From contig NZ_CP083387.1 of NCBI RefSeq assembly GCF_020042345.1, positions 4,774,001 to 4,838,000 on the forward strand: a DNA stretch of 64,000 bases, read 5' to 3'. Within the stretch, counting starts at the first letter, position 1; each line of letters starts with the position of its first letter. Below the pieces are notes generated by a model that ran no database searches, was not told the DNA's origin, and saw nothing but the letters and a program-made list of their open reading frames with translations. The stretch is from Arachidicoccus terrestris. GTDB lineage: Bacteria > Bacteroidota > Bacteroidia > Chitinophagales > Chitinophagaceae. This document shows, piece after piece, positions 18,011 to 23,293 of this stretch. The translations under genes were made by a program, and so were the position numbers.

Positions 18011-18967
18011 TCAAGGTGCCGTCAGTGTATAAGTCAACGTGGTGCTATAGGTACCTACCGGCTTATTAATGAAGCTAGCATTACGTGGTTGGGTAAAATA
18101 TCTGAGGTCGAAGTTTTGAGACAGAGTCGGAATGGAAGATGTAATAATATTTTGCGCGGTCAAAGAAAGCGTTTGAGTCAGAGCATCCACTCCTGTACTA
18201 AGTGGATTGGAAGTAGGGGTAAGTCCAATGCTACTGATATCGATAAAATTTAAACCGGACTTGAGGTTAGTGGCCGACTGAACAGCCACATTATAAGAAC
18301 GATTTGAGAAGATATTTAAGGCAGATCCTTGTATAAGCTGCACGCCATTTTTGTAATTGGCAGCAGTTGTAAAATTAAGCGATGCAGTATTGGCACCATT
18401 TTGAAGTGTGATAGTCGATATATCAACAAGATTAACCGACAAAGGAGCAATGGTAAAAGGAAAACTCGATGATCCAATATATAGCGCACAATTCAGCCCG
18501 GTTGTATAGGAACCGCCCGGTTTTAATAGATTTACGCCCCCTTGGACGGAATATTTTAGACTAATTGTTAACTTAGCTCCTAATGACAGCAAGGCAGTGG
18601 TATTTGTCATGAGTTCCTGGTTCCCGTTTGTCAGATGAATAACAGGAAAAGTGCCAGAGACTGGTGAATTTCCTATTTTAACAGAAGCAACCTGTACTGT
18701 CACATTATTAAGAGGGATAGTGTTTGATCCATTGGTCAATGCATTTGAATTAGCGCTGATCACTAAGCGGATATTGGCCAGTAATGCGAGCGCCAAGGTT
18801 CGAGTAATCTGGTTTGAATAGGTAGCGGAAGTTCCGTTAGTATATAGTGCTTTGGAATTAATATTAAAGCTCACTGAAGTAGGGTTAACGGTAACCTGTC
18901 CAAGACCTGGCCCAGCGACTATTGTAAGCAAAAAAGTCATATAGAGAAATAATACATCGCATTTCAT
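18011..18967 (-). CDS. Two-domain secreted subunit, putative tip adhesin of a chaperone-usher-like pilus
   Basis: About 318 residues from 18967 (MKCDVLFLYMTFLL, a signal peptide ending near GLGQ); a longer start at 18991 is less likely. The second half (from about residue 185) is a paralogue of the 180-residue subunit at 19829. Both share an NGAN-xASL/ATL stretch, an NY/DY-NGVxL motif, a TLSxTA-type strand, DFNL/DLRY and the C-terminus INKPxGTYxTTLTYTLTxP. The first half is a separate Ser/Thr/Asn-rich beta domain. Pilin-like domain plus extra N-terminal domain is the layout of chaperone-usher tip adhesins. It is last in the minus-strand operon, after the chaperone gene. No domain name can be given with certainty. 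Confidence 0.6.
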   Translation of the reverse strand: MKCDVLFLYMTFLLTIVAGPGLGQVTVNPTSVSFNINSKALYTNGTSATYSNQITRTLALALLANIRLVISANSNALTNGSNTIPLNNVTVQVASVKIGNSPVSGTFPVIHLTNGNQELMTNTTALLSLGAKLTISLKYSVQGGVNLLKPGGSYTTGLNCALYIGSSSFPFTIAPLSVNLVDISTITLQNGANTASLNFTTAANYKNGVQLIQGSALNIFSNRSYNVAVQSATNLKSGLNFIDISSIGLTPTSNPLSTGVDALTQTLSLTAQNIITSSIPTLSQNFDLRYFTQPRNASFINKPVGTYSTTLTYTLTAP

Positions 18968-19005
18968 TTTCAAATCTTTACCAGGAATCAATAGTCAGAT
19001 AAATG

Positions 19006-19818
19006 TTAATCTTGTTTAAATTCTAATTCAGCTATTTTTAATTCATAGTCTTCGCCATAATCTATTAACGCAGTTGCGCTGTAATTACCTTTCTTTAGCC
19101 CTGCGGGAAGTACCTGAACCACTTTAAAAACAGCTCCGGGCAATGTATAGAATTTATCTTCAGGCAAAGTTATTTTTTCACCGGTTTGTAAGTTGTTCAA
19201 TTCAAAGTTAACCTTTCCGTCTGTTTCGACGACGCCGTTATTAACCAGCGTTAACAGTAATGCACTTTCTTTTGTTGAATCCTTATGAACCAGGAGCGTA
19301 TCATTGAAACCCGCTATTTCTACTTCTTTCTTGCTGACGCCTGGTGGTGTATAAAATATCTGTACACCTAATTTGACATTCAACAAAATATTCAGCCCAT
19401 TTTTTTGCCGCGCAGCTTTCATTGGATTGAGTTGAGTAAAAAAAAGCATTGCGTTCAGACTTTTAGTAACAGCACTGTCTGCAGCTTTTAACATTACGGA
19501 GACTTTTTTCTTTTCCAAAGGTTGGAGTACAAAATTGGCATTTGGTAATATTTTCAGCCATTGCGAACAGGAACTTTTTAATGATCCGACTGGATAATAA
19601 TGAATCACTCCCATACTGTCACGTTTCCAATCTGAAAGACTGACACCTACCTGTACCTGCTCCTCTCCTGAATTTGAAACAATAACATCCAGGCTTTGCA
19701 TTCCGCCTCTGGAAGCGCTAAACTCTAATTTCATCGGGGAAGCTGACAACCCGATTTGGCTTACCGCTTTAAAACCAACAGCTAACAGCAAGACGATTAA
19801 AATGTATTGTTTTATCAT
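19006..19818 (-). CDS. Periplasmic pilus-assembly chaperone (PapD/CsuC-like)
   Basis: 270 residues with signal peptide (YILIVLLLAVGFKAVSQ). The mature N-terminus IGLSASPMKLEFSASRGG leads into an immunoglobulin-like domain with SNSGEEQVQVGVSLSDW. A strand reads QWLKILPNANFVLQPLEKKKV, resembling the P-x-x-F-x-L-x-P-x-x-x-x-x-V signature of archaic pilus chaperones. A second Ig-like domain runs from about 165 to the end. Chaperones of this class hold pilus subunits in the periplasm by donor-strand complementation. The gene lies 10 bases after one subunit gene and 38 bases before the other, consistent with a single operon. The assignment rests on fold pattern and context, not a database hit. Confidence 0.65.
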   Translation of the reverse strand: MIKQYILIVLLLAVGFKAVSQIGLSASPMKLEFSASRGGMQSLDVIVSNSGEEQVQVGVSLSDWKRDSMGVIHYYPVGSLKSSCSQWLKILPNANFVLQPLEKKKVSVMLKAADSAVTKSLNAMLFFTQLNPMKAARQKNGLNILLNVKLGVQIFYTPPGVSKKEVEIAGFNDTLLVHKDSTKESALLLTLVNNGVVETDGKVNFELNNLQTGEKITLPEDKFYTLPGAVFKVVQVLPAGLKKGNYSATALIDYGEDYELKIAELEFKQD

Positions 19819-19828
19819 ATAAACGACC

Positions 19829-20368
19829 CTATGGATTGGTAAGGGTATAGGTCAGGGTTGTTGTATAAGTCCCTGTTGGCTTATTAATAAAATCCGCCGT
19901 CGGAGCCGCTTCGGTCGAATAGTTGAGATTAAAATCCTGAGATGCAGTCCCAGCAGTCGAAACTATAATGTTTGCTGCAGAAGCGGTTCCGACCGGAATT
20001 GCAACGCCCGTCAGAGTAATATCCGTATTGGCACTCGCCAGACTAGGGGTAACGGTCACATCGCCGACCGGTATAGTATTGGTTCCATTCGTCAATTCAC
20101 CGGAAGCATACACTGTTACACTGTAAGGTTGATTACTGATCGTTGTCAGGGCTGCAGCTTGATCTAAGGAGACCCCATTCGTGTAATCGGCCGGCGCGGC
20201 ATAGGTTAACGTTGCTACATTATTGGCCCCGTTAATTACTATGGACGCCGCATTTTGCAGTACAACATTCAATGTAACATTTGCTGTAGACTGCGCCTGC
20301 GTGCTAAAAAACGAAAAACAGGTAAAAATCAAAGCTGGTAGGATAGCTCTTTGCATTGCGTTTTTCAT
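19829..20368 (-). CDS. Secreted pilin-like subunit, putative major pilus subunit
   Basis: 180 residues from 20368 (MKNAMQRAILPALIFTCFSFF), preferred over 20428 because it gives a proper signal peptide, cleaved near STQAQ. The mature protein is almost all beta-type sequence, rich in Thr, Ala, Asn and Val. It starts with alternating hydrophobic residues (ANVTLNVVLQ), as in the donor strand of pilins, and ends TGTYTTTLTYTLTNP. It is the paralogue of the C-terminal half of the 18011 gene. As first gene of the operon, it is likely the most highly expressed subunit. It is divergent from the barrel gene at 20501. Confidence 0.6.
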   Translation of the reverse strand: MKNAMQRAILPALIFTCFSFFSTQAQSTANVTLNVVLQNAASIVINGANNVATLTYAAPADYTNGVSLDQAAALTTISNQPYSVTVYASGELTNGTNTIPVGDVTVTPSLASANTDITLTGVAIPVGTASAANIIVSTAGTASQDFNLNYSTEAAPTADFINKPTGTYTTTLTYTLTNP

Positions 20369-20500
20369 GGGAATATGTTTATAGGTTAACACTATGGCTA
20401 AGTTACACAAAATCCGGCAATAAGCCAATTTTTTTTATATTTGTAGTATACTGTACAAAAGGATTTCGCCAGATGTCTCATTCCTTAAACAGTCTCGACC

Positions 20501-23293
20501 ATGAAGCACCTGCCCGTCAAAATATATTCCACATGTTGGCGCAGTATATTTATTATAACTGGGTTGTTGTCGACACTATTTGTCAGGGCGCAGGACAACA
20601 TCGACTTTCTAACTGATACTGCCGTAATAAAACCAGGCAGTACCATACAGTTAAGAGCCAGATTGACCAATTTATCACACAAAAGCAAGAATTATAATAT
20701 CCAAATCAATACAGGCGATCTGAAATTAATCAATTCTATTCCCGAGCAATACATCCTTGCCGCTCACGACAGTCTGTTTATCCCATTAATCTTGTTCGCT
20801 GGACGAAAGACAAGCGCGACTAAACCACACCTAGTCACACTGAAATCTATATCAGACAGTGGAGAAGTTTTAACAAGTAATTGTTGGGTGAAACTTCCAG
20901 CCGAGAAAAAGGTCTATTTAACCGTTTCACAGCCTGACATCTATTTAAAACCTGGCGAAGACTCCGTAAACATCCAGATTCAGGTGCGTAATTCGGGTAA
21001 TTCAGACCAGAAATTTTCCATCGAAATGCATGGCCAACCAAACAACCTGCACTTAATAAAAAAAGATCTGGAGCTTTCTGCATTTACCGATACAGTCCTA
21101 TCGGTAAGGACTGGTTTGCCGACGTTTTATATGCAACACGCCGTCGGGCATTTTTTGGTTACTGGAAACTATATAGATGGCAATGTGTTTTCTACGATTC
21201 AGGTAAATATATTTAACTCAGGTAGTAGCAGGAATTATCGACAAGATCTTCCGGATAAATCTGGTTATAATAACACAGTAGGCTTTTTTACCAGATATCT
21301 GGGAACTGATATGCAATATTATGAATTAATTGGCAATGGTAAATTTAAAACTGGCAACGATGACGTCCAGTATGAGCTGAATGCGCTATATTATCCTTCT
21401 AACTACCGTTCATCTTTTATGCTTATGAATTCACATATAAATTATACTACTGACAAATGGAATATACGGGCGGGAAATATTTACAGGGATGATGAAATGC
21501 TTTTAAATGGGCGGGGAGGATCCGTTCAGCTCAAACCCTCCCCTTCTTCATCCATTAGGGTTGGTTATCTTAATAACAATTATAACCTATTAGGCTCTTT
21601 TAATGACAATTATTTTAACAGCGGTCATACAGTCTATGGAGATTATTCCAGGAAATTACAAAATAATACCCAAATTAAAGGTCTTTTTATTCAACAATGG
21701 GACCCTGCTTACAAAGGAAACAATACTTTAAGCGGTGGCACTATCAAATTTGGCATTTCCGACCGTCATTATTTGAAACTAGGAGCCTATGTCAGTTATC
21801 ATGTAAAAGGATTAAAACCTGTCGCCGAGCCTTCCAGTAATTGGGGACAGGCCGCATTGGTATCTTATTCCGGTGCGATTGGAAAATGGCAGCTACAGTC
21901 TTCCAATTATTTCAGTAGCCCATCTTATGCAGGTTATAGGAAGGGTGCTGTAAACCTTCTGGAGAGAATTGCGTTAACAACGGACAATAGATTGAATTTT
22001 TGGGCTCAATTTAGTGAAATTAATAATCACACCGACCGTATCTATAATTACTTTGGCTATTTCAACCCGTCTTACGAAAACAAAGTTGCCGAGATGGGTA
22101 TGAACGTTAATCTTAAAGACAACCTTTCTTTGATTCTTCGCCCCTATTACAGTTATGAAAGGTCGGAAAACGGATACATCAAAGAACAATACAGTTATTC
22201 CATTCGTGGCGCGCATTTAGATGTTGGAATGAATTACAATATTTCCAATCATGAAAATCTGTACCTTAAAATAGATGGCGGTCGATCAGCAGCTAATCTT
22301 AATGTATATGATCATTATTTTTCCTTTAAGTTGGATGCGAGATATAGTCTAGGCCCCTTTTCTATTAATACGATCTATCAAAACAGTCCATATTATTCAA
22401 GCGAGCTATTCTACTATAATTATACTCAGAAGAAATATGGTCTGTTTGCAATCTCTCCTGCCTTTAACGGCAATTTATTCCAAGATAAAGTATCGATAAA
22501 CGCATATAATTCAATTGAATATCAGCGAAGTTATGGGCATTGGTCTGATAATTTTAATGTAAATATGACTTGGCATATGAGGCACAATTTTAATCTTGTT
22601 CTGAATTTTAACAGACTCCAGTATTTTACGTTCGATAGACATCTCAATGCGTTCGACATAGGAATTACCAAAAACTTTACGACAAAAGGCAAGGGAAAGT
22701 ACTATAAATTGACCATGAATTTTTTTGAAGACAAAGATGGTAATTATATACGCGGTGAAGAAGAAAAGCCGGTTGTTAATCAGCTGATCAAAGTCGGTAA
22801 TGAAGTTTTTCGAACCGACAAAAATGGAACTATTAAATACAAAGGTATCCCCCCTGGAAAATATGAAGTATCCGTACTGCAGTTTAATGGGATGACAGCT
22901 GGGGATACATCTATAAGGGTACACAGTAATAAGGATGTAGACATCCCGATGCACCAAATTGGCATAATAAGTGGCAATATTAAACTTAACCTGGGGAAAT
23001 ACAGCTTTAACACGGATAAATCGGTTGCCGGCATTCATATTATTGCCATTGACAAAGCGGGAAAACGGTTTGAGACGGTAACCGATTTGGATGGGTCGTT
23101 TATACTGTACCTTCCGTTAAACGATTATGACATACAGGTTGATGTGACTACTTTACCCGAAAAATACATTTGTAAAGAACCTGTAAGATCTGTTCATCTT
23201 TCCAACGGACAGAACAAAAGGTTAACTTTTAATATTTGGGTGGAAGAACGACAAATCAAAATCAAAAAATTCATATCTTCTTCAATACAATAG
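20501..23293 (+). CDS. Predicted outer-membrane usher-like beta-barrel protein
   Basis: 930 residues with signal peptide (about 1-30, ending LFVRAQ). Residues 35-230 look like Ig-like beta domains (PGSTIQLRARLTN, KPGEDSVNIQIQVRNSGNS). About 245-725 is a long run of alternating aromatic and polar residues typical of outer-membrane strands. Two small beta-sandwich domains close the protein, one near 735-806 (FEDKDGNYIRG, IPPGKYEVSV) and one from about 815. A 24-strand-size barrel with N- and C-terminal domains matches the size and plan of FimD-type ushers, though no usher signature is exact. A TATATTTG element at 20436-20443 could be its -7 box. The gene is divergent from the chaperone/pilin operon and more AT-rich than flanking genes. 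Confidence 0.55.
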   Translation: MKHLPVKIYSTCWRSIFIITGLLSTLFVRAQDNIDFLTDTAVIKPGSTIQLRARLTNLSHKSKNYNIQINTGDLKLINSIPEQYILAAHDSLFIPLILFAGRKTSATKPHLVTLKSISDSGEVLTSNCWVKLPAEKKVYLTVSQPDIYLKPGEDSVNIQIQVRNSGNSDQKFSIEMHGQPNNLHLIKKDLELSAFTDTVLSVRTGLPTFYMQHAVGHFLVTGNYIDGNVFSTIQVNIFNSGSSRNYRQDLPDKSGYNNTVGFFTRYLGTDMQYYELIGNGKFKTGNDDVQYELNALYYPSNYRSSFMLMNSHINYTTDKWNIRAGNIYRDDEMLLNGRGGSVQLKPSPSSSIRVGYLNNNYNLLGSFNDNYFNSGHTVYGDYSRKLQNNTQIKGLFIQQWDPAYKGNNTLSGGTIKFGISDRHYLKLGAYVSYHVKGLKPVAEPSSNWGQAALVSYSGAIGKWQLQSSNYFSSPSYAGYRKGAVNLLERIALTTDNRLNFWAQFSEINNHTDRIYNYFGYFNPSYENKVAEMGMNVNLKDNLSLILRPYYSYERSENGYIKEQYSYSIRGAHLDVGMNYNISNHENLYLKIDGGRSAANLNVYDHYFSFKLDARYSLGPFSINTIYQNSPYYSSELFYYNYTQKKYGLFAISPAFNGNLFQDKVSINAYNSIEYQRSYGHWSDNFNVNMTWHMRHNFNLVLNFNRLQYFTFDRHLNAFDIGITKNFTTKGKGKYYKLTMNFFEDKDGNYIRGEEEKPVVNQLIKVGNEVFRTDKNGTIKYKGIPPGKYEVSVLQFNGMTAGDTSIRVHSNKDVDIPMHQIGIISGNIKLNLGKYSFNTDKSVAGIHIIAIDKAGKRFETVTDLDGSFILYLPLNDYDIQVDVTTLPEKYICKEPVRSVHLSNGQNKRLTFNIWVEERQIKIKKFISSSIQ

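Follow-up and report, generated by a model that had tools for sequence, protein, structure and literature searches.

Four genes between positions 18,011 and 23,293 of a 64,000-nucleotide stretch from Arachidicoccus terrestris (contig NZ_CP083387.1, positions 4,774,001 to 4,838,000; the whole stretch is here called the window) probably specify a pilus related to those of the chaperone-usher pathway. ORF calling places three open reading frames (ORFs) on the minus strand, with 14 and 10 bases between them, and a fourth on the plus strand, which starts 72 bases from the first ORF of the operon and runs in the opposite direction; the three-gene operon divergent from the gene of a 930-residue barrel protein, as described in a first-pass annotation of the same DNA, is thus confirmed. 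The small, probably major, subunit (19829..20368, minus strand) has the C-terminal end GTYTTTLTYTLTNP, and its mature protein begins with an extension (20246..20293) of core sequence VTLNVVL, which is proposed to act as a donor strand. It is followed by a putative periplasmic chaperone of 270 amino acids (19006..19818, minus strand) with two immunoglobulin (Ig)-like domains, and by the large subunit, probably the tip protein (18011..18967, minus strand), composed of a signal peptide and two tandem subunit domains. The first of these (18494..18898, ORF residues 32-166) begins at the predicted mature N-terminus, without an N-terminal extension; the linker (18419..18445, residues 183-191) is donor-strand-like by alignment and might complete the first domain in cis; the second, C-terminal domain (18014..18442), delimited by a profile match, ends in GTYSTTLTYTLTAP. 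The plus-strand gene (20501..23293) encodes the usher-like outer-membrane protein of 930 amino acids, recognised from its ORF, an AlphaFold2 model and Foldseek; two chaperone-similar, Ig-like domains at the N-terminus (20597..21235, residues 33-245) precede a predicted beta-barrel of about 26 strands lacking a plug-sized insertion (21269..22681, residues 257-727) and two C-terminal sandwich domains (22703..23242), one SdrD_B-like (735-830) and one CarboxypepD_reg-like (846-914). Upstream of this gene TATATTTG at 20436-20443 (plus strand), read by eye, fits TAnnTTTG, the consensus of the Bacteroidota -7 element. Longer forms of both subunit ORFs use TTG starts (large, 18011-18991, 326 amino acids; small, 19829-20428, 199 amino acids), and the likely true starts, judged from the sequence, are the ATG codons at 18967 and 20368, since each directly precedes a signal peptide. 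All 38 aligned small subunits have a Gln in the same column where the signal peptide ends, in agreement with the signal-peptide rule for Bacteroidetes given in the accessible part of PMC5837995.

This gene set is not confined to the window. The barrel protein was found in 15 of the 117 genomes of the family, that of A. terrestris included; 32 stretches fetched around the family hits and around hits of full length among 395 phylum genomes make up together with the window the 33 loci, from 26 genomes, that are here called class I (two loci of the same genome being counted separately). A chaperone gene is nearby in 29 of the 33, the window's included, at least one subunit ORF is present in 31, and 18 have a protein of 300-520 amino acids with a C-terminal subunit domain; in the locus tables as many as five small-subunit ORFs are listed for a single locus. 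Where the chaperone gene is not nearby (four loci), it was in each case found elsewhere in the genome, and in one of the four genomes the pore and chaperone genes both lie at contig ends. The genome of A. terrestris itself has a second copy, arranged divergently in the same way, at about 544-551 kb. Not counted among the 33 are L114, L132 and L133, the pores of which match class I only partly or weakly, as well as L106, L108, L110 and L115, the chaperones of which are missing from the locus tables owing to an ORF filter that drops overlapping ORFs. The co-occurrence of homologues of the four genes, on which the first-pass annotation had staked its proposal of a pilus, is evident from these counts. 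Family models do not see the system: Pfam and NCBIfam gave no fimbrial or usher family match for the four window proteins at E 1. The four proteins are nevertheless a recurrent system across Bacteroidota. At E 0.001 the chaperone is matched in 84 of the 395 genomes, where the weakest matches cover short parts of long proteins; L111 and L112 have a chaperone gene and no recognisable pore or subunit gene in the fetched stretch, and the pore of L113 is doubtful. Two pores deviate in length, a second, shorter paralogue of 826 amino acids at L023:788-3268 and one of 1447 amino acids with extra sequence at L032:6375-10718. A plasmid search with a class I pore gave no match.

The chaperone is the member of the set most readily tied to known families. 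Aligned by hhalign to a profile of seven PapD-type chaperones of E. coli K-12, the class I chaperone profile reaches a probability of 95.6 and E 1.2e-8 over 201 columns, which span both Ig domains; a reversed profile gives E 0.12 and the best of 150 unrelated ORFs 0.0033. For scale, a PDB search with the E. coli profile retrieves CsuC, an archaic chaperone, at 2e-8. The best PDB match of the chaperone family profile is, again over both domains, the Gram-positive WxL-interacting protein EfmWxLIP1 (E 1.5e-13; 9.5e-6 with class I chaperones alone), followed by designed Ig proteins (2.7e-4), with the PapD-type chaperone FaeE at 0.03; single-sequence searches of the PDB returned nothing useful. Among 48 aligned chaperones fn3_5 is matched by 17, WxLIP_PGBD by 16, PapD_N by six (5e-7 at best) and WxLIP_HBD by four, and in NCBIfam there are just two weak matches to fimbrial chaperones, with one member each. 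The window's own chaperone has no PapD_N match in Pfam, and its match to WxLIP_PGBD (E 0.0048) is below the cut-off; that of L133 exceeds the cut-off of WxLIP_HBD. In the columns aligned to PapD Arg8 and Lys112, a pair that anchors the C-terminus of the subunit in PapD, the 29 class I chaperones have R (20) or K (3) and H (16), K (9), Q (3) or Y (1), respectively, the window's having K and Q. By these sequence comparisons the chaperone qualifies for the PapD superfamily by family membership, as the first-pass annotation had expected, and its closest solved relative is EfmWxLIP1, a kinship which that annotation had not suspected.

A subunit profile made from ORFs of at most 260 amino acids matches the large subunit twice, at residues 32-166 (iE 9e-14) and 184-326 (iE 4e-22), which is therefore a tandem of two subunit-like domains; the C-terminal likeness to the small subunit noticed in the first-pass annotation is real, and the other half is subunit-like as well. 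At other loci the profile detects two or three such domains per large subunit, often with weak matches towards the N-terminus. Of 91 class I subunit ORFs, 66 share a Tyr-containing C-terminal strand, as judged by a pattern that was written after the window's ends had been seen. The AlphaFold2 model of the small subunit, based on 38 aligned sequences, has a pLDDT of 86 and a pTM of 0.75, and of its best 50 Foldseek matches in the PDB 42 are chaperone-usher subunits, as counted by title; TLP-1a ranks first (6.9e-5), followed by subunits of CFA/I, CS20, type 1, P and Csu pili, with CfaB as the best of the chaperone-usher matches (2.9e-4), and the remainder of the 50 includes TasA and two archaeal filaments. 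Structure comparison with VIA likewise gives TLP-1a a Z of 9.5, CsuA/B 7.9 and CfaE 7.5. TLP-1 and TLP-2 (PDB 9ikj and 9ikk, from 2024, with 16 chains per entry), a solved multimer of a subunit relative, are also matched by the subunit profile (E 7e-7), the sequence match starting within the N-terminal extension; a further profile match leads to DUF4402-type subunits (E 2e-13).

This extension is donor-strand-like. The residues ahead of strand A alternate in character in the 38 small subunits: positions 34, 36 and 38 are hydrophobic in 84, 97 and 97%, the intervening positions 33, 35, 37 and 39 in 3-11%, and none of 2000 within-sequence shuffles reaches this alternation, related sequences not being independent. 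The alternating hydrophobic start, to which the first-pass annotation had drawn attention in the window's subunit, is thus a conserved feature. In the window's large subunit, domain 1 starts directly with strand A and lacks the donor-like segment, which reappears in the linker, a pattern expected of a tip that is added first and has no predecessor. We propose that the small subunit is a pilin whose Ig-like fold is incomplete and whose N-terminus supplies a donor strand.

For the pore the AlphaFold2 model (mean pLDDT 85.6, pTM 0.52) predicts a barrel (257-727) flanked by two Ig-like domains on the N-terminal side and two sandwich domains on the C-terminal side; in the latter Pfam recognises SdrD_B and CarboxypepD_reg. 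In Foldseek the first 11 of 1227 matches are FimD or PapC (E 7.7e-15 to 2.6e-12). VIA, the rows of which span mainly the barrel and the lists of which were not counted as contradicting families that they do not name, gives PapC a Z of 15.4 (6.1 Å, 372 aligned residues), FimD 15.0 and the OccK porins values near 16; it aligns residues 253-913 with FimD 137-833 at 13 Å rmsd, other barrels being level or higher. The pore thus has an usher's place in the operon and an usher-like order of barrel and C-terminal domains. The pair of N-terminal Ig domains, which resemble each other (E 2e-8), matches the class I chaperone profile at E 2.3e-8 (best of 150 unrelated ORFs, 0.019) and single chaperones at 5e-5 at best, with a median of 0.013; there is no link to E. 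coli chaperones (E 0.05), and the likeness to the chaperone, which is one of sequence, may be general Ig resemblance. Two other connections were tried and rejected. A direct sequence link between the window's pore and the E. coli ushers (E 0.06 for the whole protein) is surpassed by the reversed control (0.0016), and a TonB-like receptor is disfavoured by Foldseek (receptors about 1e-7, ushers 1e-14) and by the lack of any TonB-receptor family match. The identification as an usher made in the first-pass annotation draws support from FimD and PapC ranking first in Foldseek, at low TM values; membership in the usher family PF00577, as judged by score, does not hold, and none of 34 aligned pores matches that family at E 0.01.

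Other Bacteroidota have loci, here called class II, in which a homologous chaperone is combined with DUF4402-type subunits and another pore; DUF4402 is matched by 11 of 26 scanned class II subunits, at best with 9e-29, and a plasmid search with a DUF4402 subunit gave no match. The pores fall into two groups. Those of class IIa match five E. coli ushers over 598 columns (E 7e-13; reversed 0.009), and their C-terminal domain pair is matched by that of the window's class (E 5e-19); those of class IIb align with the pores of the window's class along 826 columns (E 7e-47). IIa and IIb pores do not match each other outside the C-terminal domains, and therefore the barrel is not linked to FimD by the chain that leads from the window's pore through IIb and IIa. 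Among 15 aligned class II pores (L096-L104, L107-L110, L134, L135) domains of the peptidoglycan-binding type occur, SPOR in four, OmpA in one and LysM in one; one pore matches CooC_C and one Usher below the cut-off. The class II loci L096:1-4588 and L104:8802-12014 run on into a gene for a FliG-domain protein, a MotA/ExbB protein adjoins L096, L098:1578-2375 and L104, and L096 also has a MotB-plug/OmpA/SPOR protein; pilus-like loci are thus joined to motor-like genes. Further afield, the same gene set is present on plasmid 2 of Deinococcus deserti (L157:8324-12780), where the pore is annotated as carboxypeptidase regulatory-like. Adjacent genes for a subunit (E 8e-6), a chaperone (E 4e-35) and a class IIb-type pore (E 6e-51) also lie in a 484-kb record of an uncultured phage (LR756508.1, L158:7174-11185), the assignment of which to a phage is possibly a binning error.

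On the computed evidence of the conserved gene set, the homologies of chaperone (to the PapD type) and subunits, the predicted folds of subunit and pore, the donor-strand pattern and the Foldseek ranking of the pore, we put the probability that the locus encodes a divergent chaperone-usher-like pilus at roughly 80%; most likely, the system works like a chaperone-usher pilus in which the chaperone, and not the pore, qualifies by family membership. The related fibre built by donor-strand exchange that was envisaged in the first-pass annotation draws support from the same results. By analogy, subunits and chaperone would be exported by Sec, and the chaperone would cap each subunit in the periplasm with a strand placed in its groove. 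The 930-residue protein would serve as assembly and secretion pore of the outer membrane and receive the chaperone-subunit pairs. The large subunit would go first, as the tip, its domain 1 completed in cis by the linker and its domain 2, an ordinary subunit domain, by the extension of the next subunit; small subunits would follow, the extension of each filling the groove of the previous one. Without a plug, the N-terminal Ig pair of the pore may act as a gate, which is speculation; this chaperone-like pair would then do the receiving and gating that in FimD are done by N-domain and plug. Strand donation between chaperone and subunit, translocation by the pore and a fibre at the cell surface as the product are what we infer from this analogy.

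A number of results weigh against such a pilus, most of them concerning the pore. A classical usher is a 24-strand barrel with an internal plug. The model predicts about 26 strands for the window's barrel (DSSP elements counted by hand), and the longest gap between barrel strands is 18 residues, which leaves no plug. The usher matches in Foldseek have TM values by query of 0.22-0.29 only and rmsd values of 16-23 Å, and Ig-rich ciliary proteins rank just below them (2.8e-11), which indicates that the Ig domains add to the pore's ranking. In VIA the first rank is taken by 6r2q_B, from the Mtr complex (Z 20.2, 5.7 Å, 420 aligned residues), which we take to be MtrB. PF00577 is matched neither by the window's pore at E 1 nor elsewhere in its own genome, and its cut-off is reached in none of the 395 genomes of the phylum; four matches remain below it, two of which (G285, G427) lie beside a chaperone match, that of G285 being inside a class II pore (L096). 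Profile comparison shows no sequence similarity of the barrel to E. coli ushers (E 0.19, surpassed by 0.0037 for the reversed control) or to the IIa barrels (E 0.057), the link to the IIa pores running via the C-terminal domains only. The evidence from the subunits has its own weak points. Of 1063 Foldseek matches of the subunit model only six reach E 0.001, the VIA Z values against pilins stay below 8, where a Z alone is weak, sequence likeness to E. coli pilins is limited to 19-35 C-terminal columns, and the monomer model shows the proposed donor strand as coil. Finally, a comparison of the chaperones with class II subunits that was expected to be empty gave E 1e-4 over 25 columns; short Ig-like similarity is therefore a nuisance here. 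The first-pass annotation had itself held that a TonB-like or porin barrel without plug, combined with no predicted chaperone-subunit interface, would tell against a pilus; with no plug and MtrB as the closest geometry, the first half of this reservation has come true.

The same operon might instead be the Gram-negative version of a WxL cluster, that is, a static surface complex of chaperone and subunits in which a strand of the two-Ig protein stays lodged in the subunit for good, with the barrel exporting monomers and not a fibre. The WxL domain has two Trp-x-Leu motifs, and the DUF916 protein of these clusters carries a C-terminal transmembrane helix. Such a relation would account for EfmWxLIP1 being the closest solved relative of the chaperone, for the WxLIP_PGBD matches in a third of the aligned chaperones (16 of 48) and the WxLIP_HBD match of L133, and for the only plasmid matches of one sister chaperone, five Streptomyces records, three of them annotated as DUF916. 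It would also account for the gene set: according to the accessible parts of PMC10599100, PMC9772566 and PMC1534035, WxL clusters comprise one WxLIP, a small WxL protein and a large one, in which the WxL domain is C-terminal (PMC10599100, PMC9772566). What makes this explanation unlikely in our view is, in the chaperone, the absence of a C-terminal membrane helix by eye (it ends KIAELEFKQD, with no hydrophobic stretch), unlike WxLIP, and, in the subunits, the lack of any WxL family match (24 of class I at E 0.1, 26 of class II at E 0.01) and of Trp in their printed C-terminal ends. Moreover, a polymer would fit both the 16-chain TLP entries, which are homologous, and the loci with as many as five small-subunit ORFs, and growth from a tip agrees with a conserved extension that is missing from the N-terminal end of the large subunit in the window.

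Still less probable is a barrel of unrelated origin, a porin or a scaffold like MtrB, that happens to be joined to Ig and CarboxypepD_reg domains of common types, with the operon encoding surface adhesins that are exported otherwise. Its plugless geometry (closest to what we take to be MtrB), the missing sequence link between barrel and ushers and the widespread types of its C-terminal domains would all be expected of such a scaffold; a scaffold of unrelated origin would not be expected next to the chaperone in 29 of 33 loci, nor would its C-terminal pair be expected to match the IIa pores, which in turn match E. coli ushers, or Foldseek to place ushers (7.7e-15) above porins and receptors (about 1e-7). 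A variant of the type V (FimA/Mfa1) pilus, finally, is suggested by the host, since type V is the known kind of pilus in Bacteroidota, and by the homologue of a sister chaperone in D. deserti, which is annotated as a FimB/Mfa2 family fimbrial subunit. It is very improbable: neither the four window proteins (Pfam and NCBIfam, E 1) nor the 48 chaperones (E 0.01) match a fimbrillin or FimB/Mfa2 family, in the window's subunits the signal peptide is not followed by a cysteine of the lipoprotein type, and type V systems are not known to include a dedicated chaperone or barrel.

If the reading as a chaperone-usher-like pilus is true, Bacteroidota possess a second pilus pathway beside type V, which is hidden as usher models miss it (none of the 395 genomes), and nature provides a plugless usher-like pore on which the function of the plug could be examined. 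In addition, the chaperone establishes a homology link between chaperone-usher pili and WxL clusters, which the accessible parts of the WxL papers cited leave unconnected; in the main text of PMC10599100 the words usher, chaperone and Bacteroid are absent. It is tempting, if tentative and rather less than an even bet, to regard the two as different outcomes of one ancestral strand-donation system, with the present lineage as the link: it would have kept a WxLIP-like chaperone and the pair of small and large subunits, and gained a plugless outer-membrane pore, the built-in chaperone copy of which (the two N-terminal Ig domains) would catch and cap the base of the fibre in place of the classical plug and N-domain.

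Compared with known systems, the locus shares several features with chaperone-usher pili (FimA-H and Pap, archaic Csu, alternative CFA/I and ECP): a small and a large, tip-like subunit, a PapD-homologous two-Ig chaperone, a pore with C-terminal sandwich domains, donor-strand-like extensions, and a subunit fold matching CfaB, CsuA/B and FimA. It differs from them in the plugless pore of about 26 strands with two N-terminal Ig-like domains and no usher family match, and in a large subunit made of tandem subunit domains. Archaic chaperone-usher systems are placed by the accessible part of PMC4654587 in alpha- to delta-Proteobacteria, Cyanobacteria and Deinococcus-Thermus, Bacteroidota not being named there, and by that of PMC9452303 in a wide range of phyla. 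Among the titles and beginnings of abstracts listed, most subscription journals and preprints being outside the search, no report of a chaperone-usher system in Bacteroidota was found, nor, within the same limits, was the term DUF4402 found in the literature searched.

With the WxL clusters of Gram-positive bacteria the locus shares the three-gene set and a chaperone family homologous to EfmWxLIP1 over both domains; in WxLIP (DUF916-DUF3324), two Ig-like domains as well, AlphaFold2 predicts a strand inserted into WxL (PMC10599100, in the part accessible). Unlike these clusters, it adds an outer-membrane pore, its chaperone has no visible membrane anchor, and its subunits, which lack a WxL family match, have Tyr where the C-terminal WxL motif has Trp. 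TLP-1 and TLP-2, known by the titles of their PDB entries, resemble the small subunit in profile and fold, the N-terminal extension included, and have 16 chains per entry; the sequence alignment is confined to residues 5-103 of about 236. The class II loci of other Bacteroidota are related as well: in their IIa pores, unlike the window's, the alignment with E. coli ushers extends over the barrel, the plug region included (presumably, as it was placed by the position of the plug in FimD), and their chaperones and subunits are homologous to those of the window and encoded in the same kind of operon.

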